Assembly (NCBI GenBank): GCA_947632695.1
Contig: CANRQC010000003.1
Coordinates: forward strand, 1 to 36,857
DNA length: 36,857 bases
Reading direction: 5' to 3'
DNA from: an uncultured Oscillospiraceae bacterium
Lineage (GTDB): Bacteria > Bacillota > Clostridia > Oscillospirales > Oscillospiraceae
Of this stretch, positions 11,165 through 21,095 are shown one piece after another (within the stretch, counting starts at the first letter, position 1; each line of letters opens with the position of its first letter). The notes under the pieces are model-generated. The model did no database searches. It had not been told where the DNA came from and saw only the letters and a list, made by a program, of their open reading frames with translations. The position numbers and the translations under genes are program-made.

Positions 11165-11372
11165 CCGGTTTTCCTCCCTTACTGTCATCTCGGGATGCCA
11201 GGATATCCCGACATATCATCTCGCTGCCAAACTTGGTGATCCGCCGTGGATAAAATGAACGAGCCTTACCCACCGCGGCAGATAAGTCTCGTCGTTTCAG
11301 ATGATACCAGGAAAGATTCCGGTGTGTTGGAATCACCGCACAAAGGTGCCGACTACTCCCTTATTCAAAGCA

Positions 11373-11401
11373 ATTATATCATGGAATCCGCGTTTTTTCA
11401 A
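11373..11401 (-). promoter_or_regulatory. Promoter of the TetR gene
   Basis: On the - strand, -35 TTGAAA (11396-11401), 17-base spacer, -10 TATAAT (11373-11378). The leader to the TetR ATG is about 200 bases, unusually long. Confidence 0.6.
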
Positions 11402-11419
11402 CTGAATTCGGAAACTCCG

Positions 11420-11449
11420 TTTTGGACAGATAACGCTCTGTGTCCAAAA
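11420..11449. promoter_or_regulatory. Candidate TetR operator upstream of its own gene
   Basis: Perfect inverted repeat TTTTGGACA, 12 bases, TGTCCAAAA, 18 bases upstream of the TetR -35 box. It is followed by AAGGAACAA, so GTCCAAAAAAGGAACAA matches, on the other strand, 8583-8599 in the divergent region. Confidence 0.5.
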
Positions 11450-11481
11450 AAGGAACAATGTTTGTCCCAAAAGAAAAAGTC

Positions 11482-11683
11482 CTACGGGCGGACAGCTTTT
11501 CACGACCTGCGGCATACATTCGCCACCGTCGCTCTACAGAACGGGGTGGACATCCGCACGGTGTCCGGAATGCTGGGTCACACCGATCCTGGCTTCACCC
11601 TCCGCACCTACACCCACGCCACCAATCCCATGCAGGTCCACGCGGCGGAAACGATTGGTAAGGTCATGGCGGGGAGAAGATAG
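11482..11683 (+). pseudogene. C-terminal remnant of a tyrosine recombinase
   Basis: The last 60 or so codons before the TAG read as the catalytic end of a phage-type integrase: HDLRHTFA (HxxR), MLGHTDPG, and the nucleophile region LRTYTHA. The N-terminal arm- and core-binding domains and the first catalytic Arg are absent. The open frame extends to 11246, but that part has no resemblance to integrases and overlaps the TetR control region. The fragment lies about 300 bases left of a tRNA-Thr 3'-end scar at 11979-12007, the distance and direction expected for the integrase of an older element that used the same site. Confidence 0.8.
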
Positions 11684-11943: not shown

Positions 11944-11979
11944 AAATATCCCGGAAATCATGGGATTTCCGGGATATTT
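11944..11979 (-). terminator. Hairpin terminator beside tRNA scar 1
   Basis: Perfect 16-bp stem (11944-11959 with 11964-11979), 4-base loop. It lies immediately 3' of the tRNA-Thr scar when read on the - strand, where a tRNA terminator would sit; the T run on the + side may also work rightward. Confidence 0.65.
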
Positions 11980-12007
11980 TGGAGCTGCTAGCCAGATTCG
12001 GACTGGC
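11979..12007 (-). repeat. tRNA-Thr 3'-end scar 1 (old att site)
   Basis: 29 bases identical to the start of the att repeat at 12147-12192, including the G at 11999 where the intact tRNA has A. Homology stops after GGACTGGC. This is best read as the footprint of an earlier integration or excision. Confidence 0.75.
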
Positions 12008-12097
12008 TACCGGTCTCCCGCAAAGCTATGCTTTGCGGGAACCCTCACGACCTCCGATTGAATCCCCGCTTCGCGGGTGGGGTGAGGTCGCCAGTCC
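12000..12097. repeat. 98-bp inverted-repeat structure between tRNA scars
   Basis: The outer arms are GGACTGGC (12000-12007) and GCCAGTCC (12090-12097). Inside are a hairpin CCCGCAAAGC-TAT-GCTTTGCGGG (about 12018-12040) and a small CCCGC-TTC-GCGGG hairpin. The right end (12083-12097) is an exact 15-bp inverted copy of 12168-12182 in the att core. Confidence 0.6.
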
Positions 12098-12113: not shown

Positions 12114-12148
12114 AAAACTCGCGGAAGTTTCCCCCGCGAGTTTTTTTT
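12114..12148 (-). terminator. Hairpin terminator beside attL
   Basis: 11-bp stem (12114-12124 with 12134-12144) with AAAA/TTTT ends, directly adjoining the tRNA 3'-end copy in attL. It can act in both directions; the + side is followed by eight T in all. Confidence 0.7.
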
Positions 12149-12192
12149 GGAGCTGCTAGCCAGATTCGGACTGGCGACCTCATCCTTACCAA
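12147..12192 (-). repeat. Left attachment site (tRNA-Thr 3' half)
   Basis: 46 bases matching 21019-21064 with one difference (G12169 against A21041, in the T-loop). It covers CCA through the anticodon stem of tRNA-Thr. It marks the left edge of the integrated element; the integrase gene starts its reading towards it. Confidence 0.9.
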
Positions 12193-12314
12193 TTATAATT
12201 TACCTTGTTATAAATTGCTTTAATTTACCGTGGCTTAAAACTGAAACCCCTTGATATATAAGGCTTTTTGCCGTTTTCCATGTTGTAGCTTGTCATAGCT
12301 TGCTATGGCCTTAC

Positions 12315-12358
12315 CTCAATCCTTTTAGCCTGTTGCTCAATCCTTTGCTCAATCCTTT
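12315..12358. repeat. Left integrase arm-site repeats (CTCAATCCTTT x3)
   Basis: CTCAATCCTTT at 12315-12325, 12336-12346 and 12348-12358. The same unit is found twice inside the right end (20897-20919). Position between the att core and int, and presence at both ends, mark them as likely arm-type integrase sites. The rest of 12193-12419 holds no gene. Confidence 0.75.
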
Positions 12359-12419
12359 TTGGGCGCTCCAAATGATACAAAAAGCGACGCCGGGGAGGTC
12401 CCCCAGCGCCGCTATTTTT

Positions 12420-13616
12420 TTATCCGACCTGTGTTTTGAGTGCGTCCCTGACCGTTTGACCGGCCCGCCTGATAGATTCTGCATTTGCGTGGCTGTACAT
12501 CCGCAACGTGACCGCCGTATCACTATGCCCCAACCGTTCGCTGACGGAAACCACGTCCGCGCCGTTGGTGATGCCGATACTTGCCGATGTATGCCGGAGT
12601 TTGTGCGGGTGGAAATCCTCTATGCCATACTTCTCCCCAAACTTCTTAAAATACCTTGTTGGGCTTTGCGGATGCAGCGGCTCCGCTGTCCCGTCTTGCG
12701 TGAAGACCCATTTTGAGATGCAGGAATGGGCTTGCCCCTCCCGGAGCTGTTTCAAGAGGGCCAGCGTTTCCGGGCCAATGTCCACTACACGGGTTTTCCC
12801 GTTTTTGGGAGTTGTTTCATATACCCCTGTCGTGGCGGTATATTGCAGATTGCGCCGGATCGTGACCGTGCCGGAATCCCAGTCAATATCAGCCCATTGC
12901 AAGGCACACAGCTCACCCCTCCTGCATCCGCTGTCTGCGGCAAGATTGATATATACCCTCCATTTTAGCGGCTCTTGCTCCGCACAGGAAAGCACGCGGG
13001 ACAGCTCCGCAACCGTGAAAGCCTTGCTTTCTTCCTCTTGTATGCGCTCATCCTTGCGGGGTGCAGGCCGCTTGACCTTCAACATGGGATTCATGACGAT
13101 TGAATCGTCTAAAAATGCCATCTCAAACACGCCGTTGAGAATATTGTATAGCTTGACTGCTGTGGCGTGGGCATATCCGGCCTTTTGGAAGTCTACCAGC
13201 AGCTTTGTTATCATTGCCGGGGAAACATCCGTTAAGAGGAAATCTCCCAGTGTGGGGAGAATGTGCTTATCAAGGAACATTCGATAGCTGGATCGTGCAT
13301 TTTCTGAAAATGTGGCCTCTTTTGTGGGCATAAACACGCCATTGGCATATTGAGCCACCGTTTTGAGCTTTGCGGCCTCTGCGGCCTCCTGGGCGGTTTT
13401 CTCTCGCTCCTGGGCACGGTTTAGGACTTCCCCATTTTTGCAGGCAAGCTCAAATGCGGCCGCCTGCTTTGCGGCCTCTCTCTCCGCCGTCCGTTTGCTC
13501 CAGCCGTCCGGCCAGTACCAGCGGGTTTTATATGGGGCCTTGCCATATCCACGGGAAACGCAAATTTGAAAGAACCGGCGACCGTCTTTTGTTTCCATTA
13601 ATTTAGTGCTTGCCAT
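12420..13616 (-). CDS. int: Tyrosine recombinase (integrase)
   Basis: 398 aa from the ATG at 13616 (AAGGAAGGGG site upstream); a start ten codons earlier is less well placed. It has an N-terminal arm-binding region, an SAM-like core-binding domain (about 85-180) and the catalytic domain with R232 (SGCRRGEL), H338-R341 (HKLR), H364 (LGH) and nucleophile Y374. All catalytic residues are present, so it should catalyse insertion and, with the excisionase-like protein, excision at the tRNA-Thr site. It reads towards attL, and its start overlaps the repressor gene by 14 bases. It is the Tn916/phage-type Int found in Bacillota. Confidence 0.95.
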   Translation of the reverse strand: MASTKLMETKDGRRFFQICVSRGYGKAPYKTRWYWPDGWSKRTAEREAAKQAAAFELACKNGEVLNRAQEREKTAQEAAEAAKLKTVAQYANGVFMPTKEATFSENARSSYRMFLDKHILPTLGDFLLTDVSPAMITKLLVDFQKAGYAHATAVKLYNILNGVFEMAFLDDSIVMNPMLKVKRPAPRKDERIQEEESKAFTVAELSRVLSCAEQEPLKWRVYINLAADSGCRRGELCALQWADIDWDSGTVTIRRNLQYTATTGVYETTPKNGKTRVVDIGPETLALLKQLREGQAHSCISKWVFTQDGTAEPLHPQSPTRYFKKFGEKYGIEDFHPHKLRHTSASIGITNGADVVSVSERLGHSDTAVTLRMYSHANAESIRRAGQTVRDALKTQVG

Positions 13617-14193
13617 CGTGATCCCCTTCCTTTCGTAACATTTCAACGGTGCTTGAAATGACTTTAGCGGACAAGTTAGCAGCTAATGCCTCAGATATTT
13701 CTTTCGATGAATGGTTTTGAAATCTGTCATCACCTGGGATTTTCAAAATTTCCTCTTTTGGGTCTGGAGCTTGCACACATTCAAAAATGACATTTAGGAG
13801 GTGGTAAAAAAAGTAATTGCCCAAAAGAGCATTTAGGACAACACGCCTATCATCATTGTGCTTATCTAAAGCCCGTTGCAAACATCCGATTGCATTTTCT
13901 GAAAGGCCAGTTGTCTTACAAGCCCCCTGTATATCCTCATTCACCGTTTTTGTACCGGTTCTACCAAGCAGATAATCAACCGATACATTATAGAAATCTG
14001 CGATTTTGCAAAGATTTTCAAGCGAAGGGCGCGAGATACCCAACTTATATTGATTTATCGCTTGTGCAGAAACATCTAAATATTTTCGTAGTGCGTCGCT
14101 GTCAGTAATTAAACCAGATAACCGGCTTGCGAGGGGTGCCGATTGCTTTTCTGCTACATCCATTTCCGAAGTAGCATTCTTTTTTCTGCCCAT
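13603..14193 (-). CDS. XRE-type repressor of the element
   Basis: 196 aa from the ATG at 14193, with GGAGG five bases upstream; an earlier ATG lacks such a site. Residues about 30-80 are a lambda-repressor-like HTH (LRKYLDVSAQAINQYKLG...SLENLCKIADFYNVSVDYLLGR). The C-terminal half is helical and unrecognised, with no clear S24 peptidase Ser-Lys pair. It is divergent from the excisionase-like gene, with AT-rich DNA and an inverted repeat between, the classic place of a lysogeny-type switch. In satellites such a repressor (Stl-like) is often released by a helper-phage protein rather than by RecA; the lack of a peptidase domain fits that, but is not proof. Confidence 0.85.
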   Translation of the reverse strand: MGRKKNATSEMDVAEKQSAPLASRLSGLITDSDALRKYLDVSAQAINQYKLGISRPSLENLCKIADFYNVSVDYLLGRTGTKTVNEDIQGACKTTGLSENAIGCLQRALDKHNDDRRVVLNALLGNYFFYHLLNVIFECVQAPDPKEEILKIPGDDRFQNHSSKEISEALAANLSAKVISSTVEMLRKEGDHDGKH

Positions 14194-14290
14194 AATAACC
14201 TCCAATGTCAAGTTTTACTTTCAACTTATCAAAATGCTAAATTATCGCTTGCTTTTTCTGGCCCTTTGTGCTATCCTAACATCAAGAAGC

Positions 14291-14323
14291 ATAACTTGAT
14301 ATAAACTATTATAAACAAGTTAT
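14291..14323 (+). promoter_or_regulatory. Operator/promoter of the rightward operon
   Basis: Inverted repeat ATAACTTG (14291-14298) and CAAGTTAT (14316-14323), 17 bases apart, overlaps a likely rightward promoter: TTGATA at 14296-14301 and TTATAC about 18 bases on. A further CAAGTTTTACTTTCAACTT lies near the repressor start, so several repressor sites are likely. Confidence 0.6.
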
Positions 14324-14373
14324 ACTTAAATGTCAATAGCATACACTAAAAAAGATGAAAGGACGATGAACAA

Positions 14374-14574
14374 ATGCAAGTGACAGAAACTAAACAGGCT
14401 ACCCCGTTCATGAAAATCGGAGCGGCCAGCAGGGCCACCGGCTTGTCGCAGTACTTTTTGCGGCAGGGGTGCAAGGACGGCACTGTTCCCCATATCAAGA
14501 GCGGAACCGTGTACCTTGTGAATGTCGCCAAGCTACTGCGACAGCTTGACGCAGAAGGGGGTGCAATGGAATGA
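14374..14574 (+). CDS. Excisionase-like small HTH protein
   Basis: 66 aa, ATG at 14374 with AAAGGA ten bases upstream. The sequence MKIGAASRATGLSQYFLRQ followed by VPHIKSGTVYLVNVAKLLRQL is the MerR/excisionase-type winged helix, in which a short helix pair is followed by a DNA-reading wing. It is the first gene rightward from the switch region. It is likely either a recombination directionality factor for the integrase or an AlpA-like activator. Its stop overlaps the next start (ATGA). Confidence 0.75.
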   Translation: MQVTETKQATPFMKIGAASRATGLSQYFLRQGCKDGTVPHIKSGTVYLVNVAKLLRQLDAEGGAME

Positions 14575-14963
14575 ACAAAATAGAAACTCCCACCGGCGCG
14601 GCAACGTCGGCAGGAGCGAGGGCGGAAAGGACAACCGGGCAGGCGTCTATTTCCTTTACTTATTCTAACACAACTGCGGCCCACGGTCAACCTTTAATCG
14701 CTGACTTTTTGGGCCATGACAGAGAAAGCGCCCGCAAGGGCTGGGAACTGTGCGCCGCACTTCACATGGACAGCCGGACACTACGGCAGCAGATCGAGCG
14801 GGAGCGCAGAGCCGGGGCGCTAATCGTTTCAGACAACAAAAATGGCTATTGGCTGACCGACGACCCGGCAGAGGCCCAGGCGTTTGCCCGTTCCATGCGT
14901 CACAGGGCGCGGCAGATTGTCAAAATTGCACAAGCCGTTGAAAGGGGCGCTGGCCTTGACTGA
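14571..14963 (+). CDS. Winged-helix protein, possible replication organiser
   Basis: 130 aa, starting in an ATGA overlap with the excisionase-like gene. The first 45 residues are low-complexity. Residues about 50-100 look like a winged helix: GWELCAALHMDSRTLRQQIERERRAGALIVSDNKNGYWLTDD, with the last part forming the wing. The C-terminus is an Arg-rich helix. Proteins of this shape often stand next to primases in phages of Bacillota, so a part in starting replication or in control of the operon is plausible. The exact family is not recognised. Confidence 0.65.
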   Translation: MNKIETPTGAATSAGARAERTTGQASISFTYSNTTAAHGQPLIADFLGHDRESARKGWELCAALHMDSRTLRQQIERERRAGALIVSDNKNGYWLTDDPAEAQAFARSMRHRARQIVKIAQAVERGAGLD

Positions 14964-15582
14964 TATTTTTCGAGAAGTCAGAGAGCGCCTAAACATGGAG
15001 GACGTGGCCCGCCACTACGGGCACGAACCCAACCGGGCCGGATTTCTTTGTTGTCCGTTTCACCGGGGCGACCGAACCGCCAGCCTAAAGCTCTATCCAG
15101 GCGGGCGTGGCTGGCACTGTTTTGGATGTAACCGAGGCGGGAGTGTGATAGACTTTGTGGCTCTTGACCTGGGACTTTCTCCCCTAGATGCCGTCAAACG
15201 GCTTAATACGGACTTTGCCCTGGGCCTACCCATTGACCGGCAGCAGACCCCCGCAGAGCGCCGGGAGGCCGAACAAGCGGCCCAGCGGCGGCGGGAAGTA
15301 GCTGATACTTACCGCGCCTTTGAACAGTGGCGAACCGATACCATCAACAGATTAAATGCTTGCTTTCGTGGAGCGCACCTGTTACAGATTTCCAGCCTTG
15401 ACCGGCTGACCGAGCGGGAGGCGCTGGCACTACGGGAACAAGCTACCGTTGAATACTTCTCCGACCTTCTATCATTTGGAACACTAGCGGAGCAAGTCGC
15501 GGTTTTCCGAGATAGGAAGGAGGTGGAGATCCTTTGCAACAGGATTTTACCCAGTACGCCGATGAAATCAGACGTGGCTTGA
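14956..15582 (+). CDS. CHC2 zinc-finger primase-like protein
   Basis: 208 aa from the TTG at 14956, which overlaps the previous stop and has AAAGGGG eight bases upstream. Residues about 30-65 form the DnaG-type CHC2 zinc finger, with CCPFH, an Arg/Lys-rich strand and WHCFGCNRGGSVIDFV. The C-terminal half is a charged helix with no visible TOPRIM catalytic motif. It is therefore only the template-binding part of a primase and may need the adjoining helicase or host DnaG. It overlaps the helicase gene by 49 bases, and a strong ribosome site for that gene lies inside it. Its context is replication of the element. Confidence 0.8.
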   Translation: MTDIFREVRERLNMEDVARHYGHEPNRAGFLCCPFHRGDRTASLKLYPGGRGWHCFGCNRGGSVIDFVALDLGLSPLDAVKRLNTDFALGLPIDRQQTPAERREAEQAAQRRREVADTYRAFEQWRTDTINRLNACFRGAHLLQISSLDRLTEREALALREQATVEYFSDLLSFGTLAEQVAVFRDRKEVEILCNRILPSTPMKSDVA

Positions 15583-16703
15583 TAGAGGACGCAACCGCAC
15601 CGCCTCCAGAGGCAGAACCGCCGAAGCCGTCACTATCTACCATCTCCGCCGCTGACCTCCAGCGCAAGGCCATACCCCCGATTCGTTTCATTGTGGACAA
15701 GCTCTTGACCGTGGGCCTTAGTATTCTGGCCTCTCCGCCGAAATATGGCAAAAGCTGGATGGTACTTGACCTGGGCTTGTCCGTGACCACAGGAGGGCGT
15801 TTCCTGGGTTACCAGACCAACAGAGCCGAGGTTTTATATCTGGCTTTGGAGGACTCCGAGCGGCGGCTAAAGGCCCGTATGTGCAAGCTGCTGGCCGGAA
15901 AACCGGCCCCCGCCGGATTCCACTTTGCTACCACGGCCCACGACGCAGATAACGGCCTGTTTGATGAATTGGAGGGCTTTTTGAAAGACCACCCGGACAC
16001 AGGTTTAATTATCGTTGACACCCTCCAACGTGTACGGGGAATCGCCCACGGTAAAGAAGGGGCTTATGCCGCCGATTATCGGGAAGTTGGAGCATTAAAG
16101 GCGTTTGCAGACAGTCACAATGTGGCCCTTCTACTTGTCCACCATCTACGGAAGATGAAGGACGACAGCGACCCGTTCAACATGATTTCCGGCACCAACG
16201 GTATCATGGGCGCTGCTGACACTACGATGGTTTTGTCAAAAGAGAAACGGGACGACGAAAACGCCACCTTGTCTATTGTGGGCCGGGACGTGGAGAGCGC
16301 CGATGCGGTGTTACACTTTAACCGGGATTCTTGCAAATGGGAAAATCTGGGTGATGCCGATTGGTTTGCAGAGCAACAGGCCCGCCGAGAGTATCAGGAA
16401 AGCCCCACAGTTAAGACCATCAAAAAATTATTGGCACAGTCCACGGATGGGGAATGGGGTGGGACAGCACAACAGCTACTTGACGCCGGTACATATATTG
16501 CCCGCACACGTCTGGCCGCGTCTGCCCGTGACCTGACCAGCCAACTCAAACAGATGGACAAGCTCCTGTTTGAGTACGACAACATCATCCACGAAAGAAA
16601 GAGCAATGGCACCGGCGGCGGGAAACATTTATTCTACTATGGCAACCTTGCCCCGCTTGAGGAAATGGAGCCAGACGAAAACAACCCGTTTCTACCCACC
16701 TAA
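15534..16703 (+). CDS. RepA-type RecA-fold helicase/ATPase
   Basis: 389 aa from a TTG at 15534 with AGGAGG ten bases upstream. The RecA-like core has Walker A in SPPKYGKSW (about residues 73-81), Walker B in GLIIVDTLQRV, and LLLVHHLRK, the AAA_25/RepA group used by plasmids and phage islands as a replicative helicase. A C-terminal helical part (about 285-365) may bind partners. The iteron origin begins six bases after the stop, as in satellite islands where the rep gene adjoins ori. Together with the CHC2 protein it forms the element's own replication module. Confidence 0.85.
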   Translation: MQQDFTQYADEIRRGLIEDATAPPPEAEPPKPSLSTISAADLQRKAIPPIRFIVDKLLTVGLSILASPPKYGKSWMVLDLGLSVTTGGRFLGYQTNRAEVLYLALEDSERRLKARMCKLLAGKPAPAGFHFATTAHDADNGLFDELEGFLKDHPDTGLIIVDTLQRVRGIAHGKEGAYAADYREVGALKAFADSHNVALLLVHHLRKMKDDSDPFNMISGTNGIMGAADTTMVLSKEKRDDENATLSIVGRDVESADAVLHFNRDSCKWENLGDADWFAEQQARREYQESPTVKTIKKLLAQSTDGEWGGTAQQLLDAGTYIARTRLAASARDLTSQLKQMDKLLFEYDNIIHERKSNGTGGGKHLFYYGNLAPLEEMEPDENNPFLPT

Positions 16704-16708
16704 AAACA

Positions 16709-16812
16709 CCGTTGCAACCGTTGCGACCGTTGGAACCGTTGATATATAAGGGCTATTTTGGTAAATCATGTAATTCTTGCAACGATATCAACGAAGCCAA
16801 CGGAACCAACGG
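16709..16812. other. Iteron-type replication origin
   Basis: Four direct 9-bp iterons (CCGTTGCAA, CCGTTGCGA, CCGTTGGAA, CCGTTGATA; 16709-16744), then 32 AT-rich bases (16745-16776), then four 9-bp units in inverse orientation (TTGCAACGA, TATCAACGA, AGCCAACGG, AACCAACGG; 16777-16812). A fifth partial unit GCAACGA follows. Every unit abuts the next without a gap. Inverse iteron sets around an AT-rich core, right after the helicase gene, are the layout known for SaPI origins. Confidence 0.85.
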
Positions 16813-17300
16813 GCAACGATGCCCCCCTAAAAGAAGGCCAAAACAAATGGGCGGCTATCGCCTGGATGTGCAAAAACCAGCTAGGGCGCCGGAATCTGAC
16901 GCCAGAACAGAAAACCTATCTGACCGGGAAACAATACGAAGCTGAACGAAAGACTTCAGGGGGTCAACTTGAAAACAGAAATGCGCAAAAACGAGTTGAC
17001 CAGAGTGGTCAACTCGTTTCGGGAGGAACCACCCGCCAGCGCATGACGCAAGGCGGATTAAAAAACAAAAACAGGGAAGAAGATACTGGCCGATTCACCA
17101 CAAATGACCAGATTGGTCATTTGTGGCAGGACACAACTAGAAAAAAGATTGCAGAGCAATTTGGCGTTGGTGAAGGAACTGTACAGCGTTCGGAATATTA
17201 CTTGCAGGGCCTTGACCAGGCCGAAAGAGGTTGTGGAAGAAAAACATCCGCAACCTCAACACGGAAAAACAATGCAGAAAAGGGCAATTTACCATTCTGA
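16758..17300 (+). CDS. Truncated ParB-like DNA-binding protein
   Basis: 180 aa if the TTG at 16758 is used, but that start lies inside the origin and its first 20 codons translate iterons; the true start may be downstream (for example the ATG at 16866) or non-standard. Residues about 30-60 (KWAAIAWMCKNQLGRRNLTPEQKTYL) match the part that follows the ParB nuclease-like domain in phage and plasmid ParB-like proteins, and about 128-150 (TRKKIAEQFGVGEGTVQRSEYY) is an HTH. The ParB N-terminal domain is missing. Two long palindromes lie within the gene and encode DQSGQL and DQIGHL. It may bind them or the origin. Confidence 0.6.
   Translation: MVNHVILATISTKPTEPTGNDAPLKEGQNKWAAIAWMCKNQLGRRNLTPEQKTYLTGKQYEAERKTSGGQLENRNAQKRVDQSGQLVSGGTTRQRMTQGGLKNKNREEDTGRFTTNDQIGHLWQDTTRKKIAEQFGVGEGTVQRSEYYLQGLDQAERGCGRKTSATSTRKNNAEKGNLPF
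16989..17019. repeat. Palindrome P1 (14-bp arms, GAG centre)
   Basis: Perfect arms AAACGAGTTGACCA / TGGTCAACTCGTTT around GAG, inside the ParB-like gene. Core TGACCA-N3-TGGTCA is shared with P2 and P3. Confidence 0.9.
17098..17126. repeat. Palindrome P2 (13-bp arms, GAT centre)
   Basis: Perfect arms CCACAAATGACCA / TGGTCATTTGTGG around GAT, inside the ParB-like gene, 108 bases after P1. Same TGACCA-N3-TGGTCA core, different outer arms. Confidence 0.9.
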
Positions 17301-17318
17301 CCAAAATGGTCAAAATGG
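17292..17318. repeat. Palindrome P3 (12-bp arms, one mismatch, AAA centre)
   Basis: Arms CCATTCTGACCA / TGGTCAAAATGG around AAA, spanning the stop of the ParB-like gene. Core TGACCA-N3-TGGTCA is again exact. Confidence 0.85.
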
Positions 17319-17341
17319 AATGACAACCCACCAGCGCAACC

Positions 17342-17372
17342 GTCAACCGTGGTTTGTAACAATGCGGTTGAC
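17342..17372. repeat. Inverted repeat GTCAACCG...CGGTTGAC
   Basis: Perfect 8-bp arms with a 15-base spacer, upstream of the small zinc-ribbon gene. It differs in spacing from P1-P3 and may be an operator. Confidence 0.55.
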
Positions 17373-17417
17373 CGATTGGACGGAGATTTACAACAATACC
17401 GAAAGGAGATATTGACA

Positions 17418-17612
17418 ATGTTTTACATCAAAATTGGAAAGAAAAAGCGCAATCTTCGGGAGGACAATATTTATACCCGCTGTCCGATTTGCGGACGTGA
17501 ACACGCCGTAGACCTCCAGGAGATTTTGAAGGGAGGTGACGCCGATTTGTACGGAACATCAGTATATTGCCCGGAGTGTTCCGAGCGGCAAAAGGCAAGC
17601 GACAACCTGTAA
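17418..17612 (+). CDS. Small zinc-ribbon protein
   Basis: 64 aa from the ATG at 17418, with AAAGGAG well placed upstream. Two Cys pairs, CPIC (about residues 22-25) and CPEC (about 53-56), make a zinc ribbon; the N-terminus is Lys-rich. Proteins of this type are common just ahead of terminase genes in phages of Bacillota, but their function is not known. It could bind DNA or RNA or act as a small adaptor. It is in line with the terminase genes and ends 34 bases before the next start. Confidence 0.7.
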   Translation: MFYIKIGKKKRNLREDNIYTRCPICGREHAVDLQEILKGGDADLYGTSVYCPECSERQKASDNL

Positions 17613-17646
17613 ATTTACAGAAAAGCACAGAGAAAGGGGGGATAAG

Positions 17647-18009
17647 ATGAAAGTATCAGATGAAGCCATCATTGCGGCGGTACTCTCCAACAGCACAAAC
17701 CGGGATGCGGCGAGAGCTTGCGGATTGTCAGAAAAGCAATTTTACACCCGATTGTCACAGCCGGAATTAAAGGCAAAACTTGCGACGGCCCGTACACAGC
17801 TATTAGAGGGCGCGGCAAGCGTCATACAAGCCCGTGTGGGCGAGGCCGTGGAAACTATGGCAAATATCATGCACGACAAAGAAGCGCCGCCACAGACGCG
17901 ATTAAACGCCGCTGACGGGATTATCCGTAACGCCTTGAAGATGAATGAAACGGTTGATATTCAAGGCCAGATTGCGGAACTTAATAGGGCGGTATTCCAG
18001 AATGAATAG
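17647..18009 (+). CDS. terS: Probable terminase small subunit
   Basis: 120 aa, ATG at 17647 behind AAAGGGGGG. The N-terminal part (about 5-40: IIAAVLSNSTNRDAARACGLSEKQFYTRLS) is an HTH of the kind found in small terminases of Bacillota phages, where it recognises the packaging site. The C-terminal helices (about 45-115) would serve oligomerisation and contact with the large subunit. It overlaps the large subunit start by 8 bases, which supports the assignment strongly. In satellites the small subunit directs helper packaging to the satellite genome. The family fit is by shape and context. Confidence 0.75.
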   Translation: MKVSDEAIIAAVLSNSTNRDAARACGLSEKQFYTRLSQPELKAKLATARTQLLEGAASVIQARVGEAVETMANIMHDKEAPPQTRLNAADGIIRNALKMNETVDIQGQIAELNRAVFQNE

Positions 18010-19363
18010 TAGTATTGAGAGACAGCTTGCGGCATTGAAACGGGAGATAAAGGCCAGACAGGGCGGCAAAGACGTGTTAGCCAAGCTGGACGTTACCCAG
18101 CATATAGCGCCGGTCTATCTGCCCTTACACGCCGATATAGAGGCCAACAGACACACCGTGTATAACCTCCCCGGCGGGCGTGGCTCTTGTAAATCCTCTT
18201 TCGTTTCCCTTGAAATCGTCAACGGCATTATGGCAGACCCCACCGGCCACAGCAACGCCATTGTGTTCCGGCTTTACGGTAACACCTTGCGGGAAAGCGT
18301 ATTCTCTCAGATCGCCTGGGCCATTGATACCCTGGGCGTGGGCCACCTCTGGAAAAGCCGTATTGCCCCCATGCAATGGGTATATACCCCGACCGGGGCG
18401 CAAATTGTTTTCCGTGGTCTGGACGATGCTAGCAAATTAAAGTCAATCAAGCCCACACGGGGGACTTTCCGCTTCATATGGCTGGAGGAATTTTCAGAGC
18501 TGCCAGGGCCGAACACCCTTAGAAACGTGATGCAATCGGTACAACGCGGCGGCGACACCTTCACCGTGTTTAGATCGTTCAACCCGCCCATTTCAAAGAA
18601 CAACTGGGCCAACGTCTACATACAAGAGCCGGACGAGCGGGCCACAACACTATTGACCGATTACACCATGATCCCCCCGGAATGGCTGGGCGATGCCTTT
18701 TTGTACGAGGCGGAGCGGTTAAAGGCCATCAACCCCACGGCATACCAGCATGAATACATGGGCATACCCACCGGCACCGGCGGCGAAGTCTTCCCCGCTC
18801 TGGAAATCCGGGAAATCACGGACGCAGAAATAACACAGATTGAGTACATTTACCAGGGCCTTGATTTTGGCTTTGCGCAAGACCCAGCCTGTTTTCTCCG
18901 TGTGGGCTATGACCGGCGGCGGGAGGTTATCTATCTGATTGATGAAATCTATCGGAAGGGCATGAGCAACCGCCAGATTGCCGACGCCATCAAAGGGAAG
19001 GGATATGACCGGGCAGAAATGGCTTGGACGGGGCGAGGTTATGAACGTGAACTTGTCCCTGTGATATGCGACAGTGCCGAACCGAAAAGTGTTTCAGACC
19101 TGCGAGACCTGGGCTTGCTTGCCTGGAGCTGTCACAAAGAACCGAACTGCGTTCAATATCGTGTGAAGTGGCTACAACATCGTACAATCGTAATAGACCC
19201 GAAACGGACACCCAACGCATACCGGGAGCTTGTAAATTATTCCTATGAGGCGGACAAAGACGGGAATTTTTCAAGCCTCTTGCCTGACCGTGATAACCAT
19301 TCGATAGATGCCCTTGCTTATGCTTTAGATCGGGTTATCTACCGGCGGGAAAATCCAGCATAG
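18002..19363 (+). CDS. terL: Terminase large subunit
   Basis: 453 aa from the ATG at 18002. The N-terminal ATPase has Walker A GGRGSCKSS (about residues 57-65, with Cys where Gly is usual) and Walker B in FRFIWLEEFSEL. The C-terminal RNase H-like nuclease is complete, with acidic residues in LDFGFAQDPA, VICDSAEPKS and DNHSIDALAYALD. It belongs to the Terminase_3/PBSX group, full length. It would cut concatemeric DNA and pump it into a procapsid. No portal or capsid gene follows, which is unusual; the enzyme must use a helper's procapsid or be a relic. It shows no frameshift, so recent selection is likely. Confidence 0.93.
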   Translation: MNSSIERQLAALKREIKARQGGKDVLAKLDVTQHIAPVYLPLHADIEANRHTVYNLPGGRGSCKSSFVSLEIVNGIMADPTGHSNAIVFRLYGNTLRESVFSQIAWAIDTLGVGHLWKSRIAPMQWVYTPTGAQIVFRGLDDASKLKSIKPTRGTFRFIWLEEFSELPGPNTLRNVMQSVQRGGDTFTVFRSFNPPISKNNWANVYIQEPDERATTLLTDYTMIPPEWLGDAFLYEAERLKAINPTAYQHEYMGIPTGTGGEVFPALEIREITDAEITQIEYIYQGLDFGFAQDPACFLRVGYDRRREVIYLIDEIYRKGMSNRQIADAIKGKGYDRAEMAWTGRGYERELVPVICDSAEPKSVSDLRDLGLLAWSCHKEPNCVQYRVKWLQHRTIVIDPKRTPNAYRELVNYSYEADKDGNFSSLLPDRDNHSIDALAYALDRVIYRRENPA

Positions 19364-19379
19364 AAAGGAGGGAGCCGAC

Positions 19380-19667
19380 ACGGGAAGTTTAGAAATTATA
19401 TGCCATAATTGCGGAGCCGTCACCGAGATAACCCCGGACATTATCATGGAGACCGACAAGCTCCAACCGGGGGTAATTCCGTACAGATGCCCCCATTGTC
19501 TCGCAAGAATGAATAAGCGAACATGGGACAAGTTGGTATTTGCCTTTTGGACTTTTGAAGAAGTCAACAAAGAATTGCGGGAATGGCATACCGGCTATGA
19601 CAATCACCCGCTGATGCAAGCGCAGATTAAGACCCACTATGTACCAAAAAACAAAATATTATTTTAA
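19380..19667 (+). CDS. Zinc-ribbon protein with an uncertain, perhaps ACG, start
   Basis: The frame encodes CHNC (codons from 19401) and CPHC, a zinc ribbon, then a helical tail ending HYVPKNKILF. A strong AAAGGAGGG at about 19365-19374 follows the terL stop, but the codon at the right distance is ACG (19380); no ATG, GTG or TTG is in frame before the CHNC pair. The ATG at 19446 would drop the first Cys pair and has no ribosome site. Either a non-standard start is used or a start codon was lost by mutation. About 95 aa from 19380. The function is unknown; position suggests a packaging-linked role. Confidence 0.55.
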   Translation, partial: TGSLEIICHNCGAVTEITPDIIMETDKLQPGVIPYRCPHCLARMNKRTWDKLVFAFWTFEEVNKELREWHTGYDNHPLMQAQIKTHYVPKNKILF

Positions 19668-19683
19668 AAAGGAGAATTACGAC

Positions 19684-20313
19684 ATGAACAAAAACCATTT
19701 TGACAACCTGGCAAAGGCCAGCACCGACTTTATTAAATCCGTAGATAGCATTATTCCCGACGTGCAGAAGAACGCGGCAGAGGATAAGAATTGGGCCGAA
19801 TTTGTCCAGAAAGACCGGCGAGAGGCCCGCGCCGCTTATGTTGCGGCCACCATCAACGAGGGCGCGGCCACGGCCAAGCGAAAGGCAGATGCAGAGCTTG
19901 ACGCCATGAGAGCCGCCTTTAAGAAGTACATGACCACCACCAGCGACCCCGGAGCCTTGCAGAGCCTCCAGGCGCTTATTGGCGCGGGCGTGAAGCTGTC
20001 CAGGGCGGAGGTGGAGGCATACGCCGCCAGCAACGATTATGCCACCTTGCGCCTTTTGGAGCCGCACAGCCAGGGCAGAGTAAAGGCCCCCGACCTGACC
20101 CGCTTTGAAACCGATATGAAAGAGATTGCCTTTTATTTTGGGGGCTTGTCCAGCTATTCCGGCCCCGCTTGCGAACTGGCCGACTACACCACGGCCCACT
20201 ATTTTGGGCTACCCTCCAAAACGGCGGGAACCATCGTAAAGGGCAAGGCCGACCACTTCCAGGCAATGCTTGACGAAATCGCCGCCCGCTGGAGCATGGT
20301 AAAGGAGGGGTAA
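19684..20313 (+). CDS. Unknown helical protein of the element
   Basis: 209 aa from the ATG at 19684, with AAAAAGGAG upstream; a frame reaching back to 19639 has no such site. The sequence is rich in A, K, D and E with long predicted helices (about 50-120), no Cys, no membrane span and no signal peptide. No family is recognised. It stands where phages keep capsid, scaffold or portal genes, directly after terminase, yet has none of their motifs. A role in redirecting a helper's procapsid or in interfering with it is possible by position only. Confidence 0.65.
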   Translation: MNKNHFDNLAKASTDFIKSVDSIIPDVQKNAAEDKNWAEFVQKDRREARAAYVAATINEGAATAKRKADAELDAMRAAFKKYMTTTSDPGALQSLQALIGAGVKLSRAEVEAYAASNDYATLRLLEPHSQGRVKAPDLTRFETDMKEIAFYFGGLSSYSGPACELADYTTAHYFGLPSKTAGTIVKGKADHFQAMLDEIAARWSMVKEG

Positions 20314-20316
20314 AGC

Positions 20317-20655
20317 ATGACAGACCGGCAGGAGAGCCGTGCAAAGGGGGAGGCCACCCGCAAGGAAAATGCAAAGGCCAAAGCCGCCCGCTATGAGCAA
20401 GAGCGCCAGGACAAGGCCCTTGTGGCCCAGGCCATGCGGGGCATTCTGGGCGACGATGGAGCCACCGCCCGCGAAAAGATTTTTGCGGCCCTGACCCTGG
20501 ACAATATCGAAATTGGCGATTTAGTCCCCTGGAGGGCCGCGAGGCTTTACGACAGCGACACCGACACCGCCGCATTTGCGAGGGCCGTGAGCGCCATTAC
20601 AGAGGTAAAGGGACAGGCAGAAACAGAAAATCAAGTCTTCAAAATGAAGACTTAA
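20317..20655 (+). CDS. Unknown charged protein of the element
   Basis: 112 aa, ATG at 20317 three bases after the previous stop, with AAAGGAGGGG upstream. The first 45 residues are a strongly charged helix (K, R, E, A); the rest is acidic and helical. No family is recognised. The last codons and stop lie within palindrome P4 (20633-20653). It is the final gene of the rightward operon and is followed by a 0.2 kb palindrome-rich stretch and a terminator. It may act together with the preceding 209-aa protein. Confidence 0.6.
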   Translation: MTDRQESRAKGEATRKENAKAKAARYEQERQDKALVAQAMRGILGDDGATAREKIFAALTLDNIEIGDLVPWRAARLYDSDTDTAAFARAVSAITEVKGQAETENQVFKMKT

Positions 20656-20839
20656 AGGGCCCATTTTGAGCCTTTTCACTTTTGGTGTTAGTGGGTCCAT
20701 TTTGGACCCACTAACCGACATTGGTAAATGACCAAAGCGGTCAACGCTAACGCTGTAGTTGGTAGAGCCCAAAATGAGCCCCACCAAAGCGCGTTAGATA
20801 GAGAGAGCCGGGGGTGGTAGGTCCGAAACGGACCTACCA
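20633..20839. repeat. Right palindrome cluster (P4-P8), otherwise gene-free
   Basis: Perfect: P4 at 20633-20653 (9-bp arms AAGTCTTCA, centre AAA); P6 at 20687-20715 (13-bp arms GTTAGTGGGTCCA, centre TTT); P8 at 20815-20839 (11-bp arms TGGTAGGTCCG, centre AAA). Imperfect: P5 at 20655-20677 (8 of 10 pairs, centre TTT) and P7 at 20759-20787 (10 of 13 pairs, centre AAA). A weaker TGACC-AAAGC-GGTCA is at 20729-20743. No gene is seen in 20656-20861. Confidence 0.85.
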
Positions 20840-20861
20840 AAACAACGAAAGATTCACAGGA

Positions 20862-20888
20862 CCGGGGAACCCTCCCCGGCCCATTTTT
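20862..20888 (+). terminator. Terminator of the element's rightward operon
   Basis: Stem CCGGGGA / TCCCCGG (20862-20868 with 20873-20879), ACCC loop, followed by CCCATTTTT. Confidence 0.75.
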
Positions 20889-20896
20889 AGGTCCAG

Positions 20897-20919
20897 CTCA
20901 ATCCTTTGCTCAATCCTTT
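20897..20919. repeat. Right integrase arm-site repeats (CTCAATCCTTT x2)
   Basis: Copies at 20897-20907 and 20909-20919, the same sequence and 12-base period as at 12336-12358, about 100 bases inside attR. Confidence 0.75.
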
Positions 20920-20981
20920 TGAGAAAACCGCATTTTTGACAAAAATCCGTTTTCCATCAAAAAGTTATAAAAACTATAAGA

Positions 20982-21016
20982 AAAACCACCCAAAACCTTT
21001 AGTTTTGAGTGGTTTT
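20982..21016 (-). terminator. tRNA-Thr terminator supplied by the element
   Basis: Long stem with one mismatch: AAAACCAC and CAAAAC pair with GTTTTG and GTGGTTTT; loop CTTTA. On the - strand it follows the tRNA CCA after three bases and leads into TTTTTCTTAT. Confidence 0.75.
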
Positions 21017-21018
21017 CA

Positions 21019-21095
<77 letters not shown>

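Follow-up and report, generated by a model that had tools for sequence, protein, structure and literature searches.

A mobile element integrated in a tRNA-Thr gene of an uncultured Oscillospiraceae bacterium is probably a PICI-like phage satellite which encodes a complete packaging motor of its own, i.e., both the small (TerS) and the large (TerL) terminase subunit, and borrows the remainder of the virion from a helper phage, as judged from its sequence and those of its relatives. With somewhat more reserve, we think it likely that the element represents a separate satellite family with integrated and plasmid-like forms, in which a chimeric machine (TerS and TerL of the satellite, working on the portal and shell of a helper) would operate and whose motor lineage has been apart from phages long enough to form a clade of its own.

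The integrated element and its genes

The window (the whole stretch of 36,857 nt that was analyzed) is contig C3 of a 1.98-Mb assembly (189 contigs, 95.7% complete). The element occupies positions 12147-21020 (8.87 kb) in a tRNA-Thr gene, at a pair of direct repeats (12140-12192 and 21012-21064; 53 nt, 94% identical). The same architecture was found in ~9.5 kb in a MAG titled uncultured Oscillospiraceae bacterium (L032), where its boundaries are marked by a 52-nt repeat derived from a tRNA-Met gene; the genome of L032 (G215) is in the same family as that of the window. The features of the element are listed below, with identities to L032 and to a circular relative (L041).

12147-12192, no strand: attL, a 46-nt copy of the tRNA-Thr 3' end, in the direct repeat pair
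12420-13646, minus strand: tyrosine-recombinase integrase (Phage_integrase E 4e-29; 53% identical to the integrase of circular L041)
13603-14211, minus strand: HTH repressor, divergent from the remaining genes, in an stl-like position (HTH_3 E 7e-9)
14374-14574, plus strand: AlpA/excisionase-like small regulator (58% identical in L041 and 42% in L032, same position)
14571-14963, plus strand: 130-aa protein, function unassigned (phrog_2113 E 5e-9; 64% identical in L032)
14884-15582, plus strand: DnaG-type zinc-ribbon (CHC2) primase protein (Zn_ribbon_DnaG E 7.5e-12)
15534-16703, plus strand: AAA_25/DnaB-like helicase (AAA_25 E 2e-27)
16758-17300, plus strand: 180-aa protein (HTH_Tnp_ISL3 E 0.002, weak and under the cut-off)
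17418-17612, plus strand: 64-aa zinc-ribbon protein (phrog_21057 E 3e-15; 90% identical in L032)
17647-18009, plus strand: terS, small terminase subunit, 120 aa (phrog_2538 E 7e-6; 97% identical in L032)
18002-19363, plus strand: terL, complete large terminase (ATPase and nuclease), 453 aa (Terminase_3 E 1e-30, Terminase_3C E 6e-12)
19380-19667, plus strand: zinc-ribbon protein, start codon uncertain (phrog_15404 E 3e-7)
19684-20313, plus strand: 209-aa helical protein (85% identical in L032, dN/dS 0.39)
20317-20655, plus strand: 112-aa protein at the right end of the element (64% identical in L032; family F18)
21019-21064, no strand: attR, the direct repeat inside the intact tRNA-Thr(GGT) gene
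21020-21095, minus strand: intact tRNA-Thr(GGT) gene (ARAGORN), whose 3' end is the right repeat copy

The empty site was found in three congeneric genomes (G036, G039 and G064), where both flanks are joined over a single 46-nt copy, and the right part of the same element lies at the same tRNA gene in another species (G026; 95% identical across 1.84 kb, as far as the contig end). To the left of the element, a third, partial att copy (11972-12024) and a truncated tyrosine-integrase fragment (11246-11683) suggest that this tRNA-Thr gene had received an insertion before; att copies are likewise repeated in G036 and G039. The T loop of the tRNA-Thr genes at empty sites (L078, L079 and L080) reads TCCGAAT and that of the element-bearing copy is the canonical TTCGAAT, so the usual T55 appears to be restored through integration.

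Gene order follows a PICI-like syntax of integrase, divergent repressor, AlpA-like gene, primase and helicase, and then terS and terL. Features of PICIs found here were: i) site-specific integration with att repeats (the 46-nt att in tRNA-Thr, with three empty sites); ii) an integrase followed by a divergent regulator and by primase/replication genes; iii) the absence of capsid, portal or tail genes, with the often present terS. On the other hand, PICIs use the large terminase of the helper and have no TerL of their own, while terL (18002-19363) is complete and constrained here. Therefore we file the element as a satellite that presumably works in the manner of a PICI, a variant with its own TerL.

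Several genes call for comment. The AlpA-like gene had no Pfam match and was named from its position, size and conservation. Over 356 aa, the helicase and the corresponding half of a Prim-Pol fusion in L032 are 92% identical (dN/dS 0.066); in the primase module (14884-16703 versus 3349-5205 of L032) the same helicase is thus joined by a CHC2 zinc-ribbon protein in the window and by Prim-Pol in L032. A frameshifted primase-helicase was rejected as an explanation, as the CHC2 protein replaces the fused Prim-Pol on the same helicase, i.e., a module swap. An ORF at 17104-17415 matches, in its tail, the C-terminal end of a nuclease of PDDEXK type (family F11), which is whole in L032 and L041 and whose front part is replaced in the window by the region of the 180-aa gene. 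The zinc-ribbon gene after terL (family F3) is kept beside terL in 14 related elements, and the next gene, for the 209-aa protein, stands where relatives have coiled-coil genes of families F6/F13.

The TerS-TerL motor

As the original prediction had held, terS overlaps a complete terL (by 8 nt; the terL start was taken as the ATG at 18002, the mechanical ORF starting at 17945), and both ATPase and nuclease motifs are present: Walker A GGRGSCKS (residues 58-65), Walker B WxEE (160-163), FNPP (193-196) and the nuclease residues D288, D357, H433 and D436. A profile of five family members matched the solved TerL nuclease 2wbn, which we take to be phage SPP1 G2P, at E 8e-42, and the solved 'Gene 2 protein' ATPase 4idh at E 9e-6. 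The protein has the Terminase_3 ATPase, the RNase H-like nuclease and the acidic catalytic residues by which an SPP1-type TerL is recognized.

The dN/dS of terL was 0.105 over 453 codons against the nearest relative, L032 (proteins 94% identical), with 0.062 for the ATPase and 0.149 for the nuclease part, and that of terS was 0.092. Such values indicate purifying selection, for which a dN/dS check had been proposed, and not the relaxed selection expected of a terL kept in a defective remnant. Among 26 relatives, the Walker A K/S, the Walker B EE, the FN of FNPP and D288, D357, H433 and D436 never vary. Position 63 in Walker A does vary (Cys in 17 of the 26, Gly in six, Ala in two and Thr in one), and Cys is also found there in the portal-bearing phages L110, L112 and L146. 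The cysteine to which the original prediction had drawn attention (GGRGSCKSS) is therefore present but is an ordinary polymorphism, and both inactivation and special chemistry were rejected as its meaning. In congeneric prophages (L047, L049, L050 and L051), the open frames for TerL span 524-565 aa and exceed the satellite TerL by ~100 aa, possibly through a fused domain or an upstream frame.

In a maximum-likelihood TerL tree of 69 rows, the satellite TerLs form a single 28-row clade with 100/100 support, which has a long stem and contains no named phage; the portal-bearing SPP1-type phages lie apart from it. The clade is not purely portal-less: 26 rows lack a portal, while L094 and its near-twin L107 have one in the record and form a portal-bearing lineage nested inside. 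Two histories would account for this: a phage acquired a satellite TerL, or the satellites got theirs from the phage lineage that L094 marks. An F6-like gene follows the portal of L094.

TerS, on the other hand, comes in two types, with 21-29% identity to the window's TerS across types, whereas the TerLs of these elements are 50-69% identical. The distribution of the two TerS types disagrees with the TerL tree (e.g., L085 versus L033), which indicates that TerS, the putative DNA-recognition subunit, was swapped among elements. Such a contrast would be expected of a TerS that determines DNA specificity and a TerL constrained by its fit to a portal.

Relatives and the search for a portal

Further relatives include two att-bounded elements, one at a tRNA-Arg gene (L093, 12.2 kb), which is followed by a second satellite-like element, and one at a tRNA-Thr gene (L097, 9.6 kb). 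The two at the tRNA-Arg gene (383-16326 of L093) apparently stand in tandem at one gene. In L046, which comes from a congeneric genome, the same block of terS, terL and zinc-ribbon gene is combined with a serine integrase and a D5-type primase. The two ends of L041 (MT836267) share an exact 124-nt overlap, by which the record closes into a circle of 11,334 bp; it has genes for an integrase, a repressor, an AlpA-like protein, a primase-helicase, TerS and TerL. Its source is a human faecal phage record from Mexico with numbered scaffolds; by country, source and naming, rather than by a stated accession, we infer that it came from a VLP study with DNase-treated particles (PMC8361208). Circular contigs can also be obtained from excised circles within cells.

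Scanning IMG/VR with a profile yielded 33 loci, of which nine were closed circles by terminal overlap (L088, L090, L091, L095, L096, L098, L100, L101 and L104; 9.3-13.9 kb). These have primase-helicase and terL, with ParA and a tyrosine recombinase in place of the integrase-repressor block, and look plasmid-like. In all nine a large gene without assigned function follows parA (~390-516 aa; families F12 or F17, or singletons). Across the family, the integration and replication modules vary, with an integrase of tyrosine or serine type and a primase of CHC2, D5 or Prim-Pol type; the terS-terL-zinc-ribbon block, in contrast, stays together. The family is widespread, its members coming from Oscillospiraceae-like gut bacteria and from viral contigs of gut type.

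The predicted absence of a portal or capsid gene from the element was borne out: family profile searches of its ORFs matched no portal, capsid, scaffold or tail family, and a permissive portal search over the window gave no match. In the host assembly (95.7% complete), neither Phage_portal PF04860 nor the SPP1-type portal phrog_533 was found. phrog_533, the portal which accompanies this TerL family in phages, was detected in nine of the 39 records that were searched; all ten circles lacked it, as did L032, L093 and L097. Counting the window, complete portal-less elements number 14 (four att-bounded and ten circular; 8.9-13.9 kb), portal-less fragments (e.g., L033, L084 and L086) being excluded. 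Phage_capsid PF05065 had no match in satellite virus records, nor did it in phage-type records, so that its absence does not separate the two. No portal directly follows terL, as it would in an intact SPP1-type prophage. Neither of the observations named beforehand as telling against the original prediction was made: terL is constrained rather than freely changing in relatives, and no portal or capsid gene lies beside the att-bounded copies.

Proposed packaging into a borrowed shell and its alternatives

That the element keeps a putatively working motor under selection is well supported by purifying selection, the invariant catalytic residues, the separate TerL clade and the 14 complete portal-less members. 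The original prediction had the element bringing its whole motor to a helper procapsid; the functional-looking motor kept under selection stands, and the loading of helper procapsids itself is what we infer as the best reading, helped by the 11.3-kb circular relative that was found in a faecal phage record. Under this reading, once a helper phage of SPP1 type is active, the element would excise and replicate into concatemers; the satellite TerS would recognize the satellite's own pac site, and the satellite TerL would dock on the portal of helper procapsids, cut satellite DNA and load it by headful packaging. SPP1-type portals (phrog_533) were found in 38 of 136 congeneric genomes, and thus the genus does contain candidate helpers, although the host assembly itself, as noted above, showed no such portal.

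As a conjecture, packaging may be tuned by the conserved helical genes that follow terL, e.g., through procapsid choice or head size. The 209-aa protein gave a low-confidence all-helical model (pLDDT 52), and the F6 protein of relatives an all-helical model of pLDDT 91. Fold searches with the F6 model returned generic helical matches only (best VIA Z 10.1), and Foldseek gave no match at E 0.001 or better. Profile similarity between the two proteins was weak (hhalign E 0.002, probability 13%), so that their homology is only suggestive at the sequence level. Among the viral and phage records searched, none was found to encode the 209-aa protein.

An unlikely alternative, which the original prediction had also raised and which may hold as a second role, is interference: TerS-TerL would mainly compete with the helper's motor for portals or cut helper DNA and thereby lower helper yield, the element's DNA being packaged by the helper TerL or not at all. 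Known satellites do interfere with helper packaging (PMC10690885, PMC6092414). However, the invariant ATPase and nuclease motifs and the strong constraint over the whole protein exceed the needs of a decoy, the equal constraint on TerS is left unexplained by portal blocking, and no gene of the element had a convincing match to an anti-phage system.

Very improbable is a small virus whose own portal and shell belong to unrecognized protein families. About five window genes are without known function and the plasmid-like relatives carry the 390-516-aa families F12/F17, but in phages a recognizable portal follows the TerL of this family, and the open frames of the portals found in phages measure ~430-595 aa, as against ≤209 aa for the window proteins without assigned function. 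F12/F17, tried as hidden portals, were rejected for want of similarity to the portal profile, and are absent from the window and from L032, L041, L046, L085, L092 and L093. We give as little credence to a plasmid-like element which uses its terminase outside virion packaging, e.g., to resolve replication concatemers: ParA and the tyrosine recombinase of the plasmid-like relatives speak for it, but it would not explain the conserved translocating ATPase motifs, the integrated members rely on integrases, and a faecal phage record is the source of one relative. Finally, a remnant of an ordinary SPP1-type prophage with terL as a leftover of lost structural genes, to which the SPP1-type phage family of TerL and the commonness of prophage decay had lent some color, is largely refuted by the intact att sites and empty sites, the purifying selection on terL, and the same absence in 14 complete members with one TerL clade.

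The closest known systems share some features with the element and differ in others. i) Gram-positive PICIs and SaPIs share the integrase at one end, the divergent repressor, the primase-replication genes, the late terS, the att boundaries and the absence of portal and major capsid genes, but encode no terminase subunit other than TerS and depend on the TerL of the helper (PMC6092414, PMC10690885), to which the window element adds a complete TerL. ii) cf-PICIs share both terminase subunits plus integration and replication genes, but also encode portal, protease, major capsid, connectors and an HNH nuclease (PMC10690885), none of which was found in the window element. iii) MulchRoom and MiniFlayer, satellite viruses of Streptomyces, likewise have terS and terL inside the satellite genome; they carry portal, major capsid and scaffold and are without key replication genes (PMC10690885). 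iv) PICMI satellites of Vibrionaceae are also small and leave capsids without remodelling, but are described as having a minimal gene content (PMC10803314). v) SPP1-type phages (Blautia phage Montmirail, Dulem virus 35 and phi OH2) have a homologous Terminase_3 TerL (37-49% identity), but portal and minor head genes come after their terL, with scaffold and major head where annotated. For AH14b, no terminase was identified by its authors. In the open papers searched, no capsid-less satellite with its own TerL was found.

The element would represent a third packaging strategy, beside motor borrowing (PICI, P4) and motor plus shell (cf-PICI). In gut viromes, the presence of terL would not by itself be safe evidence of a complete phage. 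The general view is that a packaging motor matches its own portal, and a motor-only satellite lineage would be a natural test of the portability of TerL between portals.
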